DNA from: Amia ocellicauda
Lineage: Eukaryota > Chordata > Actinopteri > Amiiformes > Amiidae
Assembly (NCBI RefSeq): GCF_036373705.1
Contig: NC_089854.1
Location: 23,414,339 to 23,478,338, forward strand
Length of the DNA: 64,000 nucleotides
Direction: 5' to 3'
Every line of letters starts with the position of its first letter. Within the stretch, counting starts at the first letter, position 1. Positions 6,001 through 42,794 of this stretch are shown here, piece after piece. The notes under the pieces were generated by a model, which did no database searches, was not told where the DNA came from, and saw only the letters and a program-made list of their open reading frames with translations. The position numbers and the translations under genes were made by a program.

Positions 6001-7792
6001 TAGATGAATCTACTACAGTAAACACACAGAGCGTGGCATCCTCTGTACCTTCCTTCAACAGATTGCTGGATTTTAAAGAAGCAAAACAAAAAAGACACTT
6101 AAACTGGAATACCCTTGTCATTCATGAGAAAAAGTGCATCTCTGCCCTCATATGCCCTGATGTTGTTTGGACATTGTTATGTTAGCTAGTTAACAAAACA
6201 TTTTAACATGTTTAACTGTTTATACCTATAGAACATGATGGATACAGGGATCAATGGCTCAGGTCCATTTTGCTGCTGAGTGTGACAGCTTTGCACTGAC
6301 CTGGCAGACTTCTGTGATGGCTTCCTGACAGAGCTCCCTGAAACACATCTGCACAGTGGAGCTGGTCGAGGCCAGAGCCAGCTGCTCAGCGCAGCACACG
6401 GCAACCCTGTCAGACGGACTGGCCTGCAGAGCAAATAACACTAAAACTGTCACTCAACACACACATTCATCCTCTCACTGTAGAGCATGTTATTGTTATA
6501 GGAGTCACACTGTAGTGCCAGAGGTATACTTGTTAGATATGGATTCACTCTTTTGTCAACGTCTTGAATGTAGTAGGAGCTGCTGTAGCTGCACCTTAAG
6601 CTGATGTAGATGTTGTACCACAGCTTTAGTTCTACTGCTGCAGAGGTTTTGCTATGACTGAAGGAAATGCTCCAGTTCTTTGCAGCGCCAGTGAAGACTG
6701 ACCCCCGGGGGCTTCCATACATACCTGTCTGAGCCTTTTCCTCAGGTCCTCCTCCACATTGTGTCTCCACTGCTCTGATAAAGGCTGCCCGGCACACTCC
6801 ACGCCCAGCAAACTGTCCCAGAGCTGGAAACAAGGGCAAGAGGGGGAGCAGGACTGTCATGGAAACTGGGCCACTTCCTTACAGTTTAGTGAACTGAGCT
6901 ACTGCAGTTACTCCTATGTAGGACATGACATTTCTCATGCAATTCGTCATTGTGGAGATCTGATGATGAATCACACCTTTATTACCAATGCCTTTCCATT
7001 TAAATTGCAGTTTAATGAGCCCCTCCTTAATGGAAATGAGTTCATAATGAACATGGCATCAGATCTCTGTGATTTAATTGATAAATGGATGTGGATCAAC
7101 AAAGCTTATTCTGCTTACCTCTATTTCTTTAGGGTAGCTGAGAGACTTTCTTTGTTTTGACCATAGTGGTTGTTGTAGGAGGTTACCCCTCCACTGCACA
7201 AACTCACTCTGAACTCCCTCCAGTTGGGCAGTGAGACGAGTCCTTTCAGCACAGTCCCCCTCACAGTCCTGGGGGAGGAAGGTTATATAAAAATTATGGC
7301 TACTACGGTGAAAGTATTAATTCAGTATTTCAGTTGAATGTAAGTATGAACGGTCTCAAACATTCTGTGCTAGATGTACATATTTTAAATAAGGGAAAGA
7401 GAGGGAATCTAAGATGATGACTTGGCACAATACCTTTTCCAGGAATGACAGCTGAATTTCAGCCACTTTTTGGACCAGCTGGAAGGATACTATTGTGACT
7501 CTGTAGCGTTGGACCAGTATGGCCATTTTACAGATGCTCCTGTGACTGCTGACACACAATCGCAAGACGCTATCCAGGAGCCCAGAGTACAGTATCCTAC
7601 AAAATAAAGGACGTGTTTTAATACAAAACTATACATAAACATTTATTTTTTTTGTAATGTATGTTGTTATTTTTTAAAATACCGTTCTTTATCTTCTTGA
7701 AGTTTCTTCAAGATATACATTATGACTTCCTCAGTTGCCTGTTAGAGATAAAAGGATAAAGTTGATGTCACATGGTCATTCCAAAGAAACCA

Positions 7793-7827
<35 letters not shown>

Positions 7828-10800
7828 ATAAAAAACTAAAAGTCAGGAGTCCATACCTGTAGGTCTTTCTGAACATGATTATTATCTTGTGTTCTTTTCT
7901 CGTACTCCTGTAACCTGTAGTCCAGGTTCTGGATCACATGTTCTAGAACAGTCCCCATCTGCTTAGAGTATTCCGGAATGTCCTCTGTGGCCACCAGACA
8001 GAGCCAGTTGTGCAATACCAGGGGGCTCACCCCTGCCTGAGATCTGTGCTCTTCCATCAAGTTAAGCATTTTTCTACAGGTAAATAAAAAGAGAAATGTA
8101 TGATCACTTACAGTGAGGGAAAAAAGTATTTGATCCCCTGCAGATTGTGTACGTTTGCCCACTGACAAAGAAATGATCAGTCTATAATTTTTATGGTAGG
8201 TGTATTTTAACAGTGAGAGACAGAATAACAACAAAAAAATCCAGAAACAAAAGTTATAAATTGATTTGCATGTTAATGAGGGAAATAAGTATTTGATCCC
8301 CTATCAATCAGCAAGATTTCTGGCTCCCAGGTATCTTTTATACAGGTAACAAGCTGAGATTAGGAGCACTCTCTTAAAGGGACTGCTACTAATCTCAGCT
8401 CGTTACCTGTATAAAAAACACCTGTCCACAGAAGCAATCAATCAATTAGATTCCAAACTCTCCACCATGGCCAAGACCAAAGAGCTGTCCAAGAATGTCA
8501 GGGACAAGATTGTAGACCTACACAAGGCTGAAATGGGCTATAAGACCATCGCCAAGCAGCTTGGTGAGAAGGTGACAACAGTTGGTGCGATTATTCGGTC
8601 TGGGGCTCCATGCAAGATCTCACCTCGTGGAGTTTCAATGATGATGAGAACGGTGAGGAATTAGCCCAGAACTACATGGGAGGATCTTGTTAATGATCTC
8701 AAGGCAGCTGGGACCATAGTCACCAAGAAAACAATTGGTAACACACTACGCCGTGAAGGACTGAAATCCTGCAGCGCCCGCAAGGTCCCCCTGCTCAAGA
8801 AAGCACATGTACAGGCCCGTCTGAAGTTTGCCAATGAACATCTGAATGATTCAGGGGAGAACTGGGTGAAAGTGTTGTGGTCAGATGAGACCAAATTCAA
8901 GCTCTTTGGCATCAACTCAACTCGCCGTGTTTGGAGGAGGAGGAATGACCCCAAGAACACCATCCCCACCGTCAAACATGGAGGTGGAAACATTATGCTT
9001 TGGGCGTGTTTTTCTGCTAAGGGGACAGGACAACTGAACCGCATCAAAGGGACGATGGACGGGGCCATGTACCGTCAAATCTTGGGTGAGAACCTCCTTC
9101 CCTCAGCCAGGGCATTGAAAATGGGTCGTGGATGGGTATTCCAGCATGACAATGACCCAAAACACACAGCCAAGGCAACAAAGGAGTGGCTCAAGAAGAA
9201 GCACATTAAGGTCCTGGAGTGGCCTAGCCAGTCTCCAGACCTTAATCCCATAGAAAATCTGTGGAGGGAGCTGAAGGTTCGAGTTGCCAAACGTCGGCCT
9301 CGAAACCTTAATGACTTGGAGAGGATCTGCAAAGAGGAGTGGGACAAAATCCCTCCTGAGATGTGTGCAAACCTGGGGGAAAACTACAAGAATCGTCTGA
9401 CCTCTGTGATTGCCAACAAGGGTTTTGCCACCAAGTAATAAGTCGAAGGGGTCAAATACTTATTTCCCTCATTAACATGCAAATCAATTTATAAGTTTTT
9501 TTAAATGCATTTTTCTGGATTTGTTTGTTGTTATTCTGTCTCTCACTGTTAAAATACACCTACCATTAAAATTATAGACTGATCATTTCTTTGTCAGTGG
9601 GCAAACGTACAAAATCAGCAGGGGATCAAATACTTTTTTCCCCCACTGTATGTATACCATATTTGATAGTTTACACTCCGGTTACAGAAACCTTGTGGTT
9701 TCAAGGGCCCTGCCAGAGCCTCAGAGTAAAATCACAACATCAAAAACAAAATAAAACAAAAACAAAGTGCAGATGGAAAAAACACACCTCCTCTTGTCTG
9801 GAAGACATCTGATCCTCTCTCTGAAAGTAGAGAAGTTGACCCCCTCCAGTCCTGCCCGGTGCCACTTCTCCACAGCTCGGCCCAGGTCTGTCCTGGCACC
9901 AGCCTCGCCAGGCCCTCTGAGCATGTGCAGAAGAGGAAGGAGCAGGGGCAGCTCGACAAGGGCGTCCTGGGCACAGCGGTTCAGCAGGTTGATCACTGTA
10001 CTGGACACAGAGTAGCAGCCAGTCTGTGAGTTCCCAGAATGCAGTGTGTCACATTGAATCAGAGTGATGTCATGGACACATAAGTCAAACTACAAAAGCT
10101 ACCCAGGAAACCCTGCAAAGTAATTTTTTCAGCTTATGTGACTGAATCACTTCCTTCACCTTTCAAATCAGGGCCCAAAGCCAATTCATTATACATTTAA
10201 CATATAACTTTTGAAATACGTTTATTAAGTAGCTTGAAACTAGGTTTCTTTGTTTCCAATAAAAAAAAAAGCAATAGAAAACAAAAATAACTCCTCTGAC
10301 ACATACCATTGTGGATTCTGAAAGAGGACTTTTAGCTCTTCCAGGTTTTCCGTGTTTTGTGCGGCAGGGCTGGAGGACAGCAGGCGACACACTGCAGCAT
10401 AGCCCTGGACGCCCAGCTGCAGACTGCAGGCGATGCTGGCCTGGAACACTACAAAGCCCAGCACCAGGGGGTTGTGTCCAGATGACTTCTTCTGCAGAGG
10501 CCCCTGAGGGCCAGTCTGCAAGAACTGGAGCAAGCGCTCCACAATCACCTGGGACACCTGCTCACGAGACAAAAGGGAAGGTCCTTCATGTTTTTCATTT
10601 AGTACGTTTTAGTAGGTTGGTGAAATAATATACTAAAAACTATAATTTTATGTTTGTCCTGATGTATTACAACACAAGGTTTTTGCAGAGAGTATAGTCA
10701 GATTTTTTCACACAGAGGAAATTCTGAAAAAATCAAGTAACCAGTAACTCACATCCATGGACGGAAGGAAATTGCCTGGGAAAACCACACACTGATCAGA

Positions 10801-12844
10801 CTTCTGAAGGCACATCTGAAAGTGTCGTAAATGCTGAATGAACTGTCCAATACTGTCCTTATTTGAAGTTTCGAGTTTTTGGAAGATTCTGTCCAGCAGT
10901 GTTTTGCTAGAAGTTTGTCTTGCTTGTAGAATTTCATTATCTCTTGAGCGGGTGAAGCTGTACACCCATTCTGTTAACCTCGAGTACGCCTGATGATGTA
11001 TAAAACCTTCATAGAGGTGCAACTCTGTAAAATACAGCAGTGAGAATGAATCTCCTCAACACATTAATACATACGTGCATACATAACAAAAGCTCAGAAA
11101 AAGACACTTTGAAAACCAGGTACACAATAAATAATTCTGGAATAACTTTTTTGTCTACCTTTTACTTGGGGGTCAGTGGGTATATTCACTTTTCTTTCAG
11201 CCATTTCTACGATCTGTTTCTGTGTTTGCTGTACAGCATATTGGTAGGACATAACTCCTCCTCTGAATAAAAATCTCTCTTCCACAGAGACGTGAGCTTC
11301 AACCAGATAGCCTTGCAAACCCAACCCTCTGAAAGACAAAGAGTGCAATGGAAATTATGCTAAACAAGCACATATGATGCACAAGGTCTGTTTCAGAGAT
11401 CAGCCAGGAAACAACACTCACCTGAAATGGGTCATTTGAAGAATGTTATAACCCCCTGAATACAGCAGGACCAGTTGGTGCAGCTTTGTGTTGAACCGAA
11501 ACTTTTTATCAAGGACGGCATAAATATAAATGGTGAACATTGGTGGACCAGTGGGGCTTCTCACTGGGGACGACTTCCTGAAACAGGGAGACACAGACCA
11601 GACACCGCAATAAATTAATCCTGGCCGGCTGCCTTCAGTTCATCATAGTTAACTGATCAGTCACCAACAGCAACCATTTGCCCTGTAACTCAAGTAATCT
11701 GAATATGACTTTAAAGATATATATTTACATAATTGTTTTCAAATTAGAACAGATTATCACTTCGCAAACAATCATAAAAATATAGTTCTATCATATAGAT
11801 TTCATACATTTTTATTTAACAAGATCAATCAGATTAAGGGAAAATATACATTAGCCATGACTCACCGGTTTCCCTTCACCTGGGATTGGCTTCCTTCAGC
11901 CGGTGAATCCGAGGGCTTCTCTGGACTCTTCACGCCGTCCTTCGCCTCTTCACTCTTGTTGACACTGTCTTTCACGGTCTGTTTGACCTCTGTTGATGAT
12001 GCAGACTCAGCTTGTTGTGTTGCCAATGTTTCTACAACTCCACTCCCGAGATCCTCAGACCCTGACTGTCCATCCTTCGATTCGGTGTCCTTCTCTGTTT
12101 TAGTCCTCTTCAGTTTAGATTCCTCTGGTCCTTGAGCTGGGGTGGTAGTGTCTGCCTGTGATTGCTCCTGCTCCATCTTTTCCGGCACAACATCAGTGTT
12201 TTCTTTCATGGGGTCCGTCTGTGTGTGCTGTGTCTTGTGTTTTGTTTGCTTTGTCTGTGTTTCCTTGTTCTTCGTCCTCAGATTTCTGTTCCCAGCCTGT
12301 GTCTTGGTTTTCTCTGACTTGTCTTCCTGGTCCTCTGTCTGTGTTCCCTTGCTGTTCCCAGTGAGTGTGTCAGTCCCCATCTCTCCCACCCCACTCCCCT
12401 CCTCACTCTTTCTCTGTACACTCTCCGATCCACCAGAAGCTGTCTTCACACTTTCTCCTCCAACGTCTGCCTTCTCTGTCTTTTTCTTTTTCCTTTTTCT
12501 GCTTCTCTTTGAGGTTTTTCCTTGTTCACATGGCTGGAAAACAAAACCAAAAGTATTCAAATCCATTCAACAGAAAAATGTTACAGGAAATAAAAAAAAG
12601 AGCAAACATTGTCTTCAGCTTTTGGAGAATATCTACCTTGTTAGTAGAATCACCTTTTGACAGGGTTCTAATGTTATCTCACCTGCTCTGTACCGGACTT
12701 GCTGGCCGTAGTGTCCTCTTGGGCAGCAACTGCCTCCTCCACCGCTGGGTTCCCATTGTCTTCAGTCGTGGTGGCATTTCCTGCCGTCTCAAGATTTATC
12801 TTCACACCTCCTTCTGTGGACACCTCCTTTAATTGGGGGTCCAT
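1..12844 (-). CDS. rnf213: RNF213 (mysterin), N-terminal half; 3' end beyond window
   Basis: This is the giant AAA+ ATPase/RING E3 ubiquitin ligase, which acts in the cytosol and on lipid droplets and in antimicrobial and vascular biology. Coding exons: 1-195, 397-555, 772-956, 1209-2571, 2668-2820, 3143-3286, 3650-3867, 4146-4305, 4396-5012, 5166-5315, 5521-5688, 5816-5981, 6301-6423, 6725-6823, 7119-7268, 7434-7596, 7683-7738, 7857-8073, 9788-10000, 10307-10557, 10753-11024, 11159-11328, 11422-11577, 11866-12533, 12683-12844. All have GT/AG borders and their phases join without a stop, giving about 2,126 residues. This matches the first ~2,150 residues of human RNF213, including near-identity at [13 protein letters not shown], the VGKSLYV P-loop-like motif split between 1209-2571 and 772-956, and CRPPKEV in the last exon. 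The catalytic AAA modules, RING and RZ finger are off-window. The gene appears intact. The start is the first in-frame ATG of exon 12683-12870; upstream exons look non-coding but could extend the N-terminus. Confidence 0.95.
1209..2571 (-). CDS. rnf213: RNF213 largest exon in the window, with an acidic insert
   Basis: A single 1,363-bp exon encodes about 454 residues. It opens with [20 protein letters not shown], comparable to human CSVQRLSQAFIDLHSAGN. It continues through [12 protein letters not shown] and ends just before the P-loop-like VGKS. Its middle (about 1900-2100) encodes a D/E/S-rich stretch containing [15 protein letters not shown], which has no counterpart in the human protein as I remember it. 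The second half ([20 protein letters not shown]) realigns well with human EGKPNLVVCGHSEVLPAALA. It belongs to the RNF213 coding frame and is listed separately for its length and insertion. Confidence 0.9.
7793..7829. repeat. (CA)n(TA)n microsatellite
   Basis: A compound dinucleotide tract in an RNF213 intron, 27 bp from the donor of exon 7857-8073. Confidence 0.9.
8111..8304 (+). repeat. Tc1 left inverted repeat (IR/DR)
   Basis: The repeat begins CAGTGAGGGAAAAAAGTATT next to TA and ends with the inner direct repeat AAATAAGTATTTGATCCCCT. It pairs with the right repeat at 9446-9648. Confidence 0.9.
8467..9438 (+). pseudogene. Tc1-like transposase, one nonsense codon and an internal deletion
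   Basis: The reading frame runs from ATG 8467 to TAA 9438 (323 codons), broken only by TAG at 8662-8664. In relatives this position is a Gln (RNQPRTT), so a single C-to-T change explains it. It starts [20 protein letters not shown] and has an N-terminal helix-turn-helix. The DD34E catalytic triad is intact: Asp140 (WSDETKF), Asp228 (QHDNDPKH) and Glu263 (NPIENLW), with 34 residues between the last two. Between GAIIR and SGAP roughly 15 residues usual in the family are missing, without a frameshift. The usual length is about 340. The gap lies between the two DNA-binding subdomains, so this copy is expected to be inactive. Confidence 0.93.
9446..9648 (-). repeat. Tc1 right inverted repeat (IR/DR)
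   Basis: This is the reverse complement of the left repeat with small differences: GGGGG for GAGGG near the tip, and ACCCC for ATCCC in the inner direct repeat. The outer end is CACTG followed by TA. Confidence 0.9.
11159..11577 (-). CDS. rnf213: RNF213 CBM20-like exon pair
   Basis: Exons 11422-11577 and 11159-11328 encode a beta-rich segment ([20 protein letters not shown], then [20 protein letters not shown]). It occupies the position of the human segment beginning [20 protein letters not shown] and ending YIPYKYVIYNG. That region is described as a CBM20-type carbohydrate-binding fold near the RNF213 N-terminus. The family assignment follows from position and pattern similarity, not from a search. 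Phases join correctly (2 then 1). Confidence 0.7.
11866..12533 (-). CDS. rnf213: RNF213 low-complexity N-terminal exon
   Basis: This 668-bp exon encodes a disordered, Lys/Glu/Thr/Ser-rich segment. It begins [20 protein letters not shown], and human RNF213 has a similar ESKKKKRKKKKKGNK patch near its N-terminus. Many KTQT/TQTE-like steps follow, then an acidic tail ending SQSQVKGN. No fold is expected; the basic patch could be a nuclear or membrane-targeting or binding element (inference). The opposite strand also stays open over this interval because of the biased composition; I regard that as a shadow. Confidence 0.85.
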
Positions 12845-15870: not shown

Positions 15871-17149
15871 TCAGGCCTCAGGTATCCTAGGTTTCTTGAC
15901 TCTCCGGAGCACAATCCTGGTCCTGGGGGCTCTCTCTGGACTGGTCTGTGGGGCGGTGGGCTCCCGTCGGGGAGTTGAAGGGCCCCTGCCGGCCTGCATG
16001 TCATCCACAAAGGCCTCAACCCCATCAAACTTGTTGGTGAGCTCCCCCAGACGCTCCTTCAAGACGTTGAACTCCTTGTAGAGGTCTCCCAAAGCGTCAG
16101 ACAGGGACTGGATTCTGGGTGGGAAGCAAGCACAGTGAGCAATGACAGACAAGGGAGCAGGCAGATGAGACAACTCAAGGAATTAATAATGTAAAATCAC
16201 AGGTGGAGGAAGAACGAAAATGCTGTGGGTTTGTATCAGGACATTCATATGTAGATATTCTATTATAATTGTCTCCAGATCCAAGAAAGAGGGTTAAAAA
16301 CTGTGAAACATGTGCCAAGTTCATAACCATAACTTTCGTTATGCATTCCTTATTTTAGCCTTCATTGTGAAAATTGTTCATATATTTGTTTTAGTTCATT
16401 TGCATTGTATTGATACCGTGGGCTTAGAAGCAAACCCTTCTGTCGGTGTGTTGTATCCTGCACTCAGCAGCTTTCCAAATTCCCTATGCTGTCCTTATCC
16501 ACATTCACTGCTAGATAACACAAACAAACAAACCAGGGTCTGCAACATATTCCTGTCCAAATAAACACAGAGACACACAGAGGTCCTCTTTCCAGCAGAG
16601 ACACTTACCTCCCGTAATCCGGGAGCACAGTATTGTGGTCGTTTAACAGCAGGTCCTTCACTTGAGTCATTATGGCAAACTTCCAGTTGTCCAGCACCGT
16701 GGTGAGGTTGGCACAGCTCCTCGTGTTCACTTTGTCCACTGCAGGGTGACACCCAACCCACACACAGTTACAGACACCTCAGCAGAGACACACACAGCTC
16801 ACTCTGAATTACTGACCAGTTTCTGCAGAGGATCAAACATGCTTCATGAAATCAGAGTGACTAAAGGCTGGTCAAACAGCAGCAACTGGTATATTGGACA
16901 CCAGAAATTTAATTTCCTTGATAGGGAGATTAATACTTGATCCCCATATTGATTGCCTAATCTTGTGCAAAGGCTGAACCCTTAGTGTAGGACTGTCTGC
17001 GAGAGCGACGCATGGCAGGGGTTGGCATACAGAGAGGAGGTCCAGGCAGACTCACTGTCAGTTCGGTCATCCCAGTCCGAGTGTTGCCTCCTCTTCTTGC
17101 TGGCAGTGCACAGCGCAGCTAGACACAGCAGGGCCAAGGTTGCCCTCAT
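15871..17149 (-). CDS. Small secreted coiled-coil protein, unrecognised
   Basis: Three coding exons (17056-17149, 16619 region i.e. 16609-16738, and 15871-16114) join in phase to give 155 residues. Residues 1-17 ([17 protein letters not shown]) form a signal peptide, followed by the dibasic run KKRRQ, a likely processing site. The mature part has one cysteine (Cys40) next to an N-glycosylation sequon (Asn42-Leu-Thr). Residues 76-114 form a coiled coil with an uninterrupted 3-4 hydrophobic spacing: I76, L79, L83, L86, F90, L93, L97, L100, F104, V107, V111, M114. The tail (117-155) is Pro/Arg-rich and ends KKPRIPEA. A secreted, possibly disulphide-linked oligomer is inferred. PLAC9-like small secreted proteins share this architecture, but I see no clear sequence match. 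Function unknown. Confidence 0.82.
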
Positions 17150-18195
17150 CGTCACTCAAACACCAGGACAGCTCTCAGGACCCGCCACACCACGCCACAC
17201 CACAGACGACTAGAGCACTGCCGAGACACACACAGCAGACACTGACAAAACTGGTCAACTTGTTTACACTAGTATTCACCTCAATTCAACAGCACTGACA
17301 TCCTGCATGAGTAGAATCGGTCTGAATTGTGAAAAATCTGAAGCTTTTTTTTGTACCAAGTGGGCTGTAAATCTGTGGTCAATATGAATGCAGGTATGGA
17401 TCTGCAAACTGGAGACACATGTGGTATAAGTTAGAGCTGGGAGACCTGGCATTGCAGTGTTATCAGGCTAACACTCCCTGCTGTGAGACAGTCCAGCTCC
17501 CCGAACAAAGCTTACTAATGCTAAAAGCTTACTTTGTGACCTTTCGACAGGGCAGCATGCTCGTCTATGTCAAATGTACAGGAGATATTCAAAAGCAAAT
17601 GCATCTTTAAAACCCCATGCAACACATGCTTCATAAAGGATATTTGCAAATGCAAGCTAACTAAAGCAACCTCCCCACCCCTCCAAAAACAAAAAGCATG
17701 GCCATTGCCACTTTCACAACAGCTTTACCTTGGCTATTATTGTGATGACAGATGTTATTGTGTCTTGTCTTTTCTGGTCTGATAGTAAAATCACTTTGCA
17801 TACACAACACTGAGCATTATTTCTACTGATGGATCCAGCAATATAAATCATTTCAACTAACTGACTGGATAGCTTCTTCTTTAATAAATGCAGAGAAAAC
17901 CTAACTAAAAAAGCATTATCCATTGTATTTTATATTTTAACAAATGTAGATGTTTCAGGATATTTTGCACATAAAAGGCTAACCACATTTATCAATCAGC
18001 TTTTCTTAGCAGGTTCAATTAGCGTGTAAAACAATGCATGGTATAATAAACAATGATATACCTGAGAGGGAAGCAGGAGTGCGGGGCTGAGTTTCCGGTA
18101 TCCCAGTCAGACTATTCCTATTAACAGGAGCTCCCAATCCTTGCAATACCAGAAAGCCAAGTGCGGTGAGTGAGAGTGAGGCAGCTCCCTTAAAT
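17150..18195 (-). promoter_or_regulatory. 5' untranslated exons and probable promoter of the secreted coiled-coil gene
   Basis: Upstream of the ATG, a pyrimidine/GT tract ends in CTCGGCAG (acceptor, 17218). A minus-strand donor CTCTCAG|GTATAT lies at 18061, so a 5'UTR intron of about 0.84 kb is likely. A TATA-like TTTAAG (minus, 18189-18194) sits 25-30 bp upstream of a plausible start near 18160. All assignments are by signal only. The rest of the intron shows nothing recognisable. Confidence 0.4.
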
Positions 18196-18199
18196 CCTA

Positions 18200-21100
18200 C
18201 CCCCCCAACCCCTTTCCCAGCCTGCCTATCTCATACTGAAGCCGTTATATTCCAGGAGGGAGTCTCCCAGACCTCTTTCCACTCCTGTAGCTCCATGTGA
18301 TGCAAACTTTCTAAACAGGTCCCCATCCCCCCCAGCCATTTTACAACATAAAGTGCTTTGGAAAATTACAGGCATCCATCAACAGTGTGTGGTTCTCCAC
18401 ACTGGGCACCTCGAATGCCAGAATTGCATCATGTTCGACATGTAACGTTTTGTAAGTTGTTTCCTTGGGTTAAGATTCATTCATCCATTTGGAGAGAGTG
18501 TTTTCTGGGGTTGAAAATGCTGGTGTCATTAATCTCTGTGGTTTTATTGGTGCTATAGGGAAATCAGACTCTTGCCTGCTCTTAATTCTACTGGGGGTTA
18601 CTCTTGTTCTGACCGCTGATCTGATTTAAATTAAGGACTACTTACAATTCAGCTCTCCGATTTAACCTTCAAACCACCAAGCGACACATAACCGCACATA
18701 TGGCATTAGCTCATCAGCTCAGATCACTGCTGTGTGTGTGGATATAACGTGGCCACCACACCATCAATCTTCCTCTGCTCCTGCTGAAGTCATGTGTCCT
18801 TCTCTCCTGCAGTGAGAAAAAATGCTCAACAGAATAATGCCATCTCATGCCACACCGCCCTCGCCCGCCTGTAGGTTTCCAGTTACGAGATCATTCCCAA
18901 AGGAGTACATTTATCAAGACCAATCACTCCAGAGAGCCCGGACACTGTGGAAGCCTATAAACTGGCTCAAGTTACCAGAGGGCTCACTCCAGTGTGTCCG
19001 TTTGATGTGGCCATGCTCCCTCCACACCGCATTCCTCCACACAGACGTAATAATTCGCACACATCTGTGGCCCACAAGGGAGAGTTCTTGTTTAGGGGAA
19101 GCTGTACGTGTAGTTAATAACCCCGACAGATGAAAGTGTCGTATGCTGTGCATGCAAAGTACTGGGATTGTGTGCGAGTGACATGCAGCTGCACTGTTGG
19201 ACAACATGTGTGGATAAGGAGGCTTGGCTCACAATCCGGGTTGAAAATGAAATCTGAGCACAGTTAGCCTTCATTGAAAAGGCAGAACATCGTGATCCTT
19301 CAGTGGTTATTGAACGCTGCGTCACAGGCAGGGCGTTTTTACTACGAGTTCAGGTTCATAAGCAGGTTATAACCTCTGTTTAGCACATAGGGGAGCTGTG
19401 TGGTTTATCTTTGGCAGGACAAAGTTGGAGTGGTGTCTTAATTACACAAACAGAACACGCTGCCGTCCAGATAAAATGGGCTGTCGATAAAAATATTATG
19501 GAGAAACAAAGTTTACAATTCAACCAAGTTAATTTGGCAGTTTCGACTCCCAACTTAAAATTGGAAAGTTACAGATCCTCCTGGAAATCAACGTAGGAGT
19601 AAATTCACAAGGCGGGGGTCGGTGTAGGTTAACCAGTCTGCAGGCATCTGGGTTGGCAAAAGCACGCTCTTTGGGGAATGCAGATAAGGATTTTAGGAGT
19701 ACTTAGAGGCACTGAATTGCACACCTAATCAACTGCCTCCTTGGCTGGGGGACAAGATATATTCCACACAGAATATAAAATGATGATTTATCGCCTTCAC
19801 ACTTCAGCTGTACAGTATGTAATCTTCCCTTGCAGCATTATCTTGTAAGGATGGAAATATAATTATCTTCTAAATATGAAGAGTAATGAAAAGTAGAAAA
19901 GGGGTTTACACAATCACTTTAAAATATTAAACCTATTGTGCCTTGTTGTCAGTGATTCACACATTAAGACAAGACTCAAAACACATGGGTGCACATTTAT
20001 ACTGCTAAAATCTCAACAAAAACTTATTTTCTATGGGAAATATCAAATGGAGCTTTCTGCTGCTCAGACTATTTTTCAAACAAAATCTATCACAATAAGA
20101 TCAGCTTTAATAAAATGTAAGCTGACATGGCCGACACTCATAGATATAGATAGAACAGAAAATGTACTTTTCTTTGAGACTCTCCAAATGTAACAGGCAA
20201 ATGGTGACCTGGTTTTTACACAGTCACAGTAGTAACAAGATAATAGAACAAAAAAAAAAAAAAAATACAATTAATGCGAAGTATAGGAAAAAGTCCAATA
20301 TTAAGTACATGCTTAAACAGACCATAAAATACCATACACGCTTGATCAATCAGAAATCTGATTTCAGGAAATTAAGCTGTATTCCAAATCTCGTTTTCCT
20401 GATCAATCTGAAGGGGAGTCCTGTCATGAGCAAACATGATCGATCAAAATGGGGAAAAGAAGGAGGCAGACAAGACATCGTTCCTTTGATTTTATTTAGA
20501 GTTTTCACTGGCAGGGCTGTAATTAAAACTTCAAACCCAACAACATACTGCGCGCTGGCAAGCCAGAGAATGAGATGGTTACAGTCATTTCAGGGACACC
20601 TCACAAGCCCCAGGATCTCAATCCGCCACAGTGAAAGAAGTTCAATCTTGACTTGTCATTCACCAGCGGTTACCCAATGTACAAATCATTCCCACTCACG
20701 TACAGAAAGCATAAGGATCTAGATAACAGAACACGGAAAAGGAAACCTCTTTTTTGTTGTTACTTTTTTCCATCAATCGTTCTCATCTTATTTTAACTTC
20801 TTTCTTCTATTCTCATAAAGATACTCATAGTGCATTCACACAGCTCCCTGTGCTTGTTTCTGAACCAACACACACACAAAGCATTAAGAATATTAAGTAT
20901 AAAAACAAAACAAACTTTATAGATACTAAGAAGCTTTGTTTCTTGGGGATAAAAAAAATAATAATAACACACCACAAAATCTGCAGCCCACCCCTGATCT
21001 TCTCCACTACTTTCATTTTCATTTTCAATGAGGCAGAGTTAACAATTTGTAGTGAAACTGTAACTTGCCAATGAGCGGTTGTACACGTACAAAGTACAAA

Positions 21101-36556: not shown

Positions 36557-38758
36557 ATGGGGTGGTACCTGGAAGGAAGACGTTTTCCATTCTTCTGGAT
36601 GAAGAGGAGTGCAAGTCAGAGTGATGAGACAAGTCTTCTGATACCAAAGGTAAAAATAAACTGTATTTATGATTATAATTATTTTTGTATCTGCCAACAA
36701 CAATATGTGATTTCAATGTCCACTGTGAAAACACAGCAAAGGCATAAGAGGAGCTACTGTACTTAGACAAACCAGTAATATATGAAAATAATATTTATTT
36801 GTTGAGTATTTTACTCTAGTTTTCTTTAGTTACAGAGAAAATCTCAGTGGAAGAAACCAAAATGTCTGTTGCCTGTAATAGTCAGGTGTTAAACTGGGGA
36901 CCTGGAGGCCATTACATTTGCTTCTGAAATGAAGGGTGACTCTTTAAAGCTTTTCAGGGTTGTTCCTTCCATGTGTTTCACTGGATTTCTCCTTTTCTTG
37001 AAGGGTAACAGGTATAAGGAGTTGTTAGCACCGATTGCATACGCAGACTCTGGAGACAGGTATTATTATTTTTTTTTTATTTCTTGGCAGACGCCCTTAT
37101 CCAGGGCGACTTACAACATAAATGCAAAAATACAGAGAAGTACAAGGCATCAATCATTACAAATTCAACTTAGCTAAAACATAGCAATTCAAAATAATAC
37201 ATTTTACAAATTCCAATTTACAATTTACACAAAGGTATGAAGTATCCCCTAAAGAGACGAAGATACAGCAAGAGCAACCAAATCCCCCTGGATTTGATAG
37301 ACATGGAGGAAATACAGCTGTCACCTCACTGCTGTCCAGGCTGATGGGGAGAATGCGACCCAGGAAAGAAGTGTTCTGGAAGAGGACAGCACCGAAGGCA
37401 GAATTGGATCACCGCTTTGGACCACGGCAGGAGTGGAAACCCAAGAGCATGGCCAACTGCTGTCTGAAATACCTGCTGTTTTTTAGCAATCTTACCTTCA
37501 CTGTACTGGGTTTGTTGACACTGGCCATCGGGCTGTGGGGCCTGGTGGACAAGGAGTCTTTTGCCCAGGAGAAAATTGGGCACATCGGCTCTGACCCCAT
37601 GTTGCTCTTCATGACCCTAGGGCTCATCCTCTCAGTGCTGTGCCTCTCGGGCTGTGTCGGCGCCCTTCGGGAGAACCAGTGCCTACTCAAGGTCTTCTCT
37701 GTGGGAGTGTTGGTCCTATTGACCCTGCAGATACTGTCTGCCATCGTGGCATACTCTCTCCGGGATCAGATTGAGGGATACCTGCGTGACGGCATGATTA
37801 TTGCCTTGAGACGCTACCAGGATGACTTGGATCTGCGCTTCATCATGGATGAAATCCAGACTGGCCTGCGGTGCTGCGGGGCGGACAGCTATCGTGACTG
37901 GGAGCTCAACGTGTGAGTGATTTCACCGCCACTGCATTCCATACAACTGGAAACATTCAGCAATGAATAGCAGGCTGCAGCTTACACAGAATATGAAAGG
38001 AACATGAGTTAGGAAATGCAATATGTTTTTAGCTTCCCCTCTCAAGTGTTAATGTTAGTTCTTTGTAGTTTTATAAAGATTGTAAAATGTAGGTGCTCAC
38101 TGTTACAGGTGAAAAACAGCCTCAGAAGAAATAGTATAATACTGTAAAATATAATAAAATACATCGGTAAACCTATTAGCCATTAAATTAGATACACCAT
38201 AACAGCATGGGTAGCTAACATTGCAACACTGTCTGGTTTAGATTCTACTTTAACCAGCAGAATTTAATGGATTTTACTTAACTGGTGGAAATTACTATTT
38301 TACCGCTGGTCATTTAACCATTGTTAACTTGTTAAGATATAAACCTGCAGGTCCGTTGCTCTCAAAGGCCCAGTGTTACAGTTATGCAGTAGGTCACAGT
38401 GCCCAATTGAGAATGATTTTGATGTCCCTCACTTCACAGTTACTTTAACTGCACCGCTCCCGGTATCCAGGCGTGTGGCGTGCCCCCCTCCTGCTGTGTC
38501 AACCCCCTGGAAAACGGCACGGTGTGGAACTCGCAGTGCGGACTGGGGGCCCAGCGGCTGGACGAGTTCTCGGCCCAGAGCGAAGTCTACCTGGGCGGGT
38601 GCTTGGGTGGCATCTCACGCTGGATTGGGCAACATACGGGCACTGTGGGTGCAGTGGGCATTGTGCTCCTGGGTGTTCAAGTCGTGAGCCTGTTCATTAC
38701 CACCCACATGGTGGACAACATTCAGCAGAGCAAAGCATACTGGCAGGGTGACATGTGA
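36557..38758 (+). CDS. tspan10: TSPAN10 (oculospanin), TspanC8 tetraspanin
   Basis: Four exons (36557-36649, 37004-37059, 37340-37912, 38440-38758) join in phase to 346 residues. Four membrane helices are visible: FFSNLTFTVLGLLTLAIGLW (TM1), LLFMTLGLILSVLCLSGCVG (TM2), FSVGVLVLLTLQILSAIVAY (TM3) and AVGIVLLGVQVVSLFITT (TM4). The large loop has CCG, NC, AC, SCC, QC and GC, eight cysteines in all, the TspanC8 signature. That subgroup escorts ADAM10 to the cell surface. TSPAN10 is expressed in RPE/melanocytes in mammals. The basic N-terminus contains SDETSLLIPK, like the short acidic/dileucine tails of relatives. ATG 36599 is an alternative start. Exon 2 (18 codons) is the least certain. The NPLOC4-TSPAN10-PDE6G order matches human. 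Confidence 0.93.
37061..37238 (+). repeat. Dispersed fish repeat (SINE-like tail) in TSPAN10 intron 2
   Basis: The core GGCAGACGCCCTTATCCAGG, then GCGACTTACAAC, is a widespread repeat core in ray-finned fish genomes. A T-rich tract precedes it and an A-rich tail follows. It begins within a few bases of the exon 2 donor at 37060-37061. The family name is not assigned. Confidence 0.7.
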
Positions 38759-42027: not shown

Positions 42028-42794
42028 TCAGATGATGCCATACTGTGCCAGTTCATGGAGCTCCAGGTGACTGAAGGCCTCCCAGGGGCAGATGACAGTG
42101 ATGTCTGCAAAGCAAAGCAACAGCTGTCAGCACAACTAACAACACTTTCTGAAGACTAGGGACTAAATCAAAATGTACCCACAAAATTACACCTCTGTAC
42201 CCTATTGTGTTTTATTTATAAATGGCAAAAAGTGGCTTCTGACAATAAATTTGATCATGATAGGTTGCATGTTTGTTATTTGCAATCTGTGGGTAGGTCA
42301 AAGTTTTGATCTGGGCTACGCATAGGCTATCTGAAAAGCATAGGCCAGTGCAGGCTGAACTTGTCTACCGTGGGTGTGTTTCTATGAGTCAAAGTTTGCT
42401 GTACAATGGCATGAATTTGGTCACATCACACTGAATCAGCCGAAAGAAACTCACCTGTGCCCAAACCTTCCATTCCAGGAATGTCATCTCCGAATCTATA
42501 AAAGGAAAAGGAAATATGGTTCTCAAACTTCCACATTCCACATGACAGAAATATTGTGTGTGTGCCCTGCATTCTAACCTTTCCTATGATTCCACCAAAG
42601 CCTAAGGAATATTGCCAAAGAATGAGCTGGACAGATGGTGATGCTTACCCCTGAACACCTTTCTTTGGGGGCTTGCTTTTGAATTGGCGGGTCTGCCTCT
42701 GCTTGAACTTGGGGGGTCCCTTGCGGGGTGTGGCTGGTCCACCAGTCACTCGGGTGGCTGACTTGACCTCGGACTTGGGGGGCTCCAGGTTCAT
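42028..42794 (-). CDS. pde6g: PDE6G, rod cGMP phosphodiesterase inhibitory gamma subunit
   Basis: Three coding exons (42649-42794, 42455-42495, 42028-42104) give 87 residues, exactly the family length. The N-terminus [20 protein letters not shown], the central Pro/Lys/Arg-rich region ([20 protein letters not shown]) and the C-terminal helix HELAQYGII are nearly unchanged from mammals. The central part binds PDE6 GAF domains and transducin-alpha, and the last residues plug the catalytic pocket. The protein sits on disk membranes of rod outer segments and is relieved by transducin-GTP in phototransduction. A 5'UTR acceptor is likely near 42941 and the first non-coding exon near 45633-45725. It lies beside TSPAN10, as in human. 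Confidence 0.98.

Follow-up and report, generated by a model that had tools for sequence, protein, structure and literature searches.

The interval between the RNF213 and NPLOC4 genes of Amia ocellicauda raises the question of whether a short run of open frames found there is a gene and, if so, what kind of protein it encodes and to what family this protein belongs. The original prediction, made from the window alone (the whole stretch of 64,000 nucleotides analyzed here, C5:23414339-23478338 of a 988 Mb genome), was of a small secreted coiled-coil protein with no named ortholog; the whole genome was now searched at both the DNA and the protein level.

A three-exon gene between RNF213 and NPLOC4

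Splicing of three exons on the minus strand of the window gives an open frame of 155 aa without an internal stop. Both introns are of the GT-AG type, intron 1 in phase 1 and intron 2 in phase 2; coordinates, frame, phases and product are all those originally predicted. An in-frame stop lies upstream of the start codon, whose -3 position is an A. The neighbors are also those predicted: RNF213, recognized by its match to a PDB sequence (E 1e-57), is on one side of the gene and NPL4/NPLOC4 lies on the other (Pfam match), followed by a tetraspanin gene. The parts of the gene are given below, where C23 and C6 stand for the contigs carrying two paralogs, and for these copies themselves.

17056..17149, minus strand: coding exon 1 (94 nt), with start codon, signal peptide, KKRR and an acidic W-D-D-R stretch; phase 1 end at a GTGAGT donor; counterparts of 97 nt in C23 and 109 nt in C6
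16739..17055, minus strand: intron 1 (317 nt), GTGAGT...GCAG, phase 1, the same phase in both paralogs
16609..16738, minus strand: coding exon 2 (130 nt, the same length in all three copies), with Cys40, the sequon, helix 1 and a conserved VLPDYxR turn
16115..16608, minus strand: intron 2 (494 nt), GTAAGT...CCAG, phase 2, the same phase in both paralogs
15871..16114, minus strand: coding exon 3 (244 nt), with heptad helix, basic tail and TGA stop codon
15342..15347, minus strand: AATAAA, candidate polyadenylation signal, the nearest downstream, about 520 nt past the stop codon

Two paralogs with the same exon plan

In a DNA search of the genome, counterparts of exon 2 and of part of exon 3 turned up on C23, at 73% and 76% identity, and a protein search added a third copy on C6. 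In each of two protein searches, all seven of the seven matches fall at the three loci on C5, C23 and C6; since scoring was limited to the top candidates of an initial pass, a fourth, more distant copy may exist. Within the window itself, tblastn with the 155-aa protein returned its own exons and three chance matches only (E 7.7 to 9.8). The two paralogs are as follows.

C23, 8164302-8164206, 8163114-8162985 and 8161356-8161140, minus strand: three exons, 147 aa
C6, 47520057-47519949, 47519808-47519679 and 47510746-47510467, minus strand: three exons, 172 aa

All three copies have the same exon plan, with intron 1 in phase 1, an exon 2 of 130 nt and intron 2 in phase 2. Exon 1 of the C23 and C6 copies was chosen among stretches having both a leader and a donor (2 and 10 candidates, respectively), because both read W-x-Y-R-D-G; the other exon ends of the paralogs were set by alignment and AG/GT. 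Pairwise BLASTP comparison of the three proteins gives E-values of 1e-44, 1e-26 and 2e-31.

Purifying selection is acting on the core of the protein. Over a core of 81 codons the window and C23 copies are identical at 57 of 81 residues, and their differences number 15, 14 and 37 at codon positions 1, 2 and 3; for this one pair of copies dN is 0.19 and dS 1.48 (dN/dS 0.127), a dS of 1.4-1.5 being near saturation. The 66 DNA differences in the 243 bases of the core change 24 codons, and none of 5000 random placements changed so few (mean 40.8, minimum 31). For the same two copies the tail has a dN/dS of 0.98, and the N-terminal part one of 0.80. Core identity to the C6 copy is 36/82 for the window copy and 39/82 for the C23 copy. 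Invariant in all three copies are W26 and R29 near the N-terminus, the pattern T-x-VLD-x-W-x-x-x-I-x-T-x-VK-x-LL, the turn VLPDY-x-R, and L-S-x-x-L-x-DL-x-x-E-x-x-x-L-x-x-RL-x-x-L; among these conserved elements the exon 2 helix, the VLPDY-x-R turn, W26 and R29 had been absent from the original description. Because there are two paralogs with the same exon plan, and because selection has preserved the protein, we regard it as virtually certain that the gene is real and conserved, and that it encodes a small protein that is one of three paralogs, rather than being a series of chance frames.

Origin of the three copies

The contigs carrying the gene also carry GRIN2 matches. The GRIN2 C-terminal model (PF10565) gives five hits in the genome, all on C5, C6 and C23, at a distance from the respective gene copy of about 12 kb on C6, 1.7 Mb on C23 and 8.3 Mb on C5, where the match is weak (E 7.7e-6). 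The surroundings of the C6 paralog include the following.

C6:47496027-47498507: GRIN2 match (PF10565)
L032 (C6 surroundings) 6815-7387, minus strand: flanking gene with an fn3_4 domain

The fn3_4 gene is presumably of the ATF7IP type, and in human terms we take the site of the C6 paralog to lie between ATF7IP and GRIN2B, at 12p13; this human interval is the place to look for a lost or missed ortholog. Next to the C23 paralog is a gene for a WAP-Kunitz-Ig-NTR protein (Pfam named one of eight C23 open frames), which we take to be of the WFIKKN type. A RAB40-like gene is also near the C23 copy; of seven marker peptides, RAB40 alone turned up on C23, and the window contained none of the seven. 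A TPR gene also lies beside the C23 paralog (L006 6597-7001 and 8125-8358, plus strand); its first stretch matches IFT70, and the gene may have introns, its two stretches being separate open frames.

Comparison of window frames of at least 35 aa with 180 kb around the C23 copy found no flanking gene common to both. The matches between the window and this region are the gene itself, transposase frames, and window positions 37018-37408 and 42167-42322, the last of which is interrupted by stops in its C23 counterpart and matches nothing in Pfam or the PDB, while the other looks like a repeat; both stretches are probably repeats, and neither was taken as a shared gene.

The GRIN2 quartet is described as the outcome of two rounds of genome duplication (PMC2954789), and the same account has the C-terminal domain lost from GRIN2D and partial in GRIN2C (PMC2954789). 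On that account GRIN2D would be invisible to the PF10565 model because it has no C-terminal domain (PMC2954789), and such loss and reduction fit the weak match on C5 and the absence of a fourth match. Three PDI/RhoGDI pairs are placed at human 17q25.3, 16p13.3 and 12p12.3 (PMC5722932), and we infer that these regions correspond to C5, C23 and C6, respectively. Since the copies sit on three contigs with GRIN2 matches, the best reading is that they are 2R ohnologs, which we consider probable. A single GRIN2 match per contig may also point to a ray-finned fish that did not undergo the teleost duplication, such as gar or bowfin. Counter-evidence comes from the order of branching: the window and C23 copies are closer to each other than either is to C6, but GRIN2 is described as splitting first into AB and CD (PMC2954789), and this difference in order counts against a 2R origin. 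The weak and distant GRIN2 match on C5, the 1.7 Mb between GRIN2 and the gene on C23, the lack of a common flanking gene between the window and the 180 kb around C23, and the yield of one marker in seven also count against it. The C6 copy may evolve faster. The duplication is likely to be old.

Searches for a described family

None of the three members reaches the cut-off of any Pfam family, the best E-values being 0.053, 0.048 and 0.3 for the window, C23 and C6 proteins. NCBIfam, which consists mainly of prokaryote models, gives only weak matches, the best of them 0.003 in one of the three members. Sequence and profile searches of the PDB gave no convincing match, and the matches look like chance coiled-coil or repeat resemblance. 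Their best is a profile match (E 1.2e-4) to the neck repeat of CLEC4M (PDB 3jqh), a helical oligomerizing neck; its score is a sum over weak repeats of which no single stretch passes, and this is coiled-coil resemblance, not homology. Eleven peptide strings from the three members are absent from the literature searched, nor was any title about the gene found there, most subscription journals lying outside the coverage. A comparison of viral contigs with the window protein gave 13 pattern matches and no relative.

Two leads came from likeness in architecture. PLAC9, judged by its human sequence, is likewise small, with a signal peptide and a cysteine shortly before a helical stretch, but at 97 aa it is shorter than the 155 aa of the window protein. 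The PLAC9 model (PF15205) gave no match to the window protein (E up to 10), the C23 protein (up to 1) or the C6 protein (up to 10), and BLASTP of the window protein against PLAC9 gave no match; in a positive control human PLAC9 scores 157.9 bits against PF15205. PLAC9 was rejected as the family. Olfactomedins and long pentraxins, the other lead, are likewise secreted and have N-terminal heptad helices that multimerize, but theirs is a large globular C-terminal domain, whereas in the window protein the heptad is followed by a short, basic, disordered tail.

The gene might still be an ortholog of a protein already named in other vertebrates. Three conserved copies on contigs with GRIN2 matches imply an old gene, which should be expected in other vertebrates; set against this are the lack of any member above the Pfam cut-off, the weak matches in the mainly prokaryotic NCBIfam, the chance-like PDB matches, and the eleven peptide strings found in no paper searched. 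We consider a named ortholog a realistic possibility, though not a probable one; in that event the gene would be an ordinary ortholog. Of comparable and equally tentative standing is the proposal of an undescribed family of secreted coiled-coil proteins, a single gene before 2R, now with three copies here and reduced or lost in mammals; its product would be an ancient extracellular factor, acting in signaling or in the matrix, whose helix-turn-helix core is conserved and for which there is no known homolog. If a gene that was single before 2R was then lost in mammals, it would represent vertebrate extracellular biology that human-centered annotation would miss. What had been a single predicted gene is now a defined three-member family with a conserved core, and its function is testable by gene removal.

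Architecture of the protein and a proposed mechanism

The features of the window protein, numbered by residue, are given below; cleavage of the signal peptide was placed by the -3/-1 rule.

17099..17149, minus strand: predicted signal peptide of residues 1-17, with A16 or S17 last before the cut; hydrophobic core with a mean Kyte-Doolittle value of 2.99 over 9 residues
17087..17098, minus strand: polybasic stretch K18-K-R-R, following immediately on the signal peptide; its counterpart in C23 is RKR, and C6 has none
16713..16715, minus strand: Cys40, the sole cysteine outside the signal peptide; in neither paralog
16701..16709, minus strand: N42-L43-T44, an N-glycosylation sequon shared with C23 but not with C6
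16644..16709, minus strand: helix 1, taken as residues 42-63; 18/22 identical to the C23 copy
15997..16113, minus strand: helix 2, which carries the heptad and spans residues 76-114; its 12 a/d positions read I L L L F L L L F V V M
15874..15996, minus strand: disordered Pro/Arg-rich basic tail, residues 115-155; 11 K/R and 3 D/E

The signal peptide described originally is there as a hydrophobic leader, as judged by sequence only, and beyond it the best 19-residue hydrophobic stretch of the window copy reaches only 0.55, so that by hydropathy there is no second transmembrane stretch; the protein is very probably secreted. Also as described, there is a Pro/Arg-rich tail; it occupies residues 115-155, with 11 K/R against 3 D/E; its sequence is free but its positive charge is kept, the last 40 residues having 11, 8 and 12 K/R in the three copies. 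The perfect 3-4 heptad claimed over 39 residues was borne out: a run of 12 positions extends from I76 to M114 in the spliced protein (13 in the unspliced open frame), and no other run of at least 9 hydrophobic 3-4 positions occurs in any of the six frames of the window. When the window was shuffled sixty times with its dinucleotides preserved, one run of at least 12 appeared in total, and shuffling residues 32-155 of the protein 20000 times never gave 12. A COILS-type score is 1.464 (P about 0.89), against a maximum of 1.450 in 500 shuffles.

Conservation had been proposed as a check on both the heptad and Cys40. Across the two paralogs of the same genome the heptad passes, with hydrophobic residues at 12, 12 and 11 of its 12 a/d positions in the three copies versus 3, 3 and 2 of 27 elsewhere in the helix, and Cys40 fails, being found in neither paralog; the C23 copy has no cysteine outside its leader and the C6 copy none at all. 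The single mature cysteine beside a sequon is thus there to be seen in the window copy, but as a family trait it does not hold, Cys40 being private to this copy and the sequon present in two of the three. The dibasic site is likewise present, as K18-K-R-R, and is unsupported as a functional feature, since it is found in two of three copies and frames no peptide. The description of a secreted coiled-coil gene outside any family survives comparison with Pfam, NCBIfam and PDB sequences, with the cysteine, the glycan site and the dibasic site removed from it as functional features. In short, the gross architecture is right, and these three features, on which the original reading as an oligomer or peptide precursor had leaned, are not family traits.

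AlphaFold2 was run on separate exons, and its models are single-sequence monomers that are uninformative on oligomers and leave the turn between the helices outside. For the exon 3 piece it gives one helix over residues 77-115 followed by a disordered tail (mean pLDDT 73.7), and for the exon 2 piece one helix over piece residues 2-37, or residues 34-69 of the protein, confident to about residue 62 (mean pLDDT 81.2). Helix 2 is amphipathic, being equaled in 5 and 8 of 2000 shuffles; for helix 1 as many as 331 of 2000 shuffles did as well in the window copy, which is not clearly amphipathic, and 42 of 2000 in the C23 copy.

These features suggest the following mechanism. The predicted signal peptide would send the protein out of the cell. 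Exon 2 would contribute one helix and then the conserved VLPDYxR turn, and exon 3 the 39-residue leucine-heptad helix, through which copies may come together as an oligomeric coiled coil. The free basic tail could bind heparan sulfate or another acidic surface, and helix 1 with the turn, the most conserved stretch, would be the likely partner contact. Taken whole, as a secreted helical oligomer whose basic tail binds glycans and whose helix 1 plus turn contacts a partner, this mechanism is a working proposal to which we give nearly, but not quite, an even chance. We infer the oligomer from the heptad, because the models are single-sequence monomers of separate pieces, and think it somewhat favored; what we take to be the trimer motif, R-h-x-x-h-E, is by eye absent from the protein. 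Glycan binding by the tail is possible and somewhat less likely than not, basic charge being no proof of it.

The heptad face might instead be buried within one chain. In a secreted monomer, helices 1 and 2 would fold into a hairpin about VLPDYxR, with the heptad face packed inside or on lipid in the manner of an apolipoprotein; a helix is predicted for each exon piece, the proline-bearing stretch between them is conserved (8/12 identical to C23), and the amphipathic helix 2 would suit such packing. Helix 2 is, however, longer than helix 1 and keeps strictly to the 3-4 spacing of a coiled coil, and helix 1 of the window copy lacks clear amphipathicity, all of which make the hairpin monomer unlikely. 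Less likely again is a disulfide-linked dimer through Cys40 as the core mechanism: the mature protein does have one unpaired cysteine, but with neither paralog sharing it such a dimer would at best be a private trait of the window copy.

The original prediction had also entertained a peptide precursor, and a peptide hormone cut out at dibasic sites could draw on KKRR at residues 18-21, RR at 124 and 145, and KK at 148. This reading was not borne out, as no conserved dibasic sites frame a conserved peptide. Since KKRR stands directly behind the signal peptide, cleavage there would trim off 4-5 residues without freeing a peptide of any size, and the C6 copy has no KKRR; the other dibasic pairs of the window copy are in the unconstrained tail (dN/dS about 1), and none is in the conserved core. 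We give a hormone precursor very little credence, and return to the secreted oligomer as the preferred reading.

Splice signals and coding potential in the window

Splice sites were scored with consensus tables and ranked among all GT or all AG of the window. Donor 2 is in the top 0.05% of GTs and donor 1 in the top 2.4%; acceptor 3 is in the top 2.6% of AGs. Acceptor 2 is weak, 29% of all AG in the window scoring as well; in both paralogs an AG likewise precedes the aligned exon 2, which again measures 130 nt, with boundaries set by us. Coding scores were compared with those of non-coding open stretches matched in length; these overlap and hence are not independent, and the training set consisted of whole open frames, which may extend beyond the true exon ends. 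None of 130 such stretches scores as well as exon 3, 15 of 1023 score as well as exon 2, and 13 of 1799 as well as exon 1, so that the codon scores of exons 1 and 2 taken alone are modest. That the whole is a chance chain of open frames, as the weak acceptor 2 and the unexceptional scores of exons 1 and 2 might allow, is contradicted by two paralogs with the same exon plan and by purifying selection, and we give it almost no weight.

Upstream of the gene, window positions 18062-18250 on the minus strand hold a possible promoter and non-coding first exon, with a TTTAAGG element and a donor CAG/GTATAT at 18062. The start codon at 17149 has no strong acceptor shortly before it; among acceptors for such an exon, the AG near 17213 scores below 5, and stronger AGs are farther off, at 17302-17401. 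On the N-terminal side of the RNF213 stretches is a Lys/Glu/Thr-rich frame of 234 codons with a Met start (window 11862-12566, minus strand) and without a Pfam match. Between RNF213 coding stretches, on the opposite strand, lies a Tc1-type transposase frame of 257 codons (window 8665-9438, plus strand; HTH_Tnp_Tc3_2 and DDE_3).
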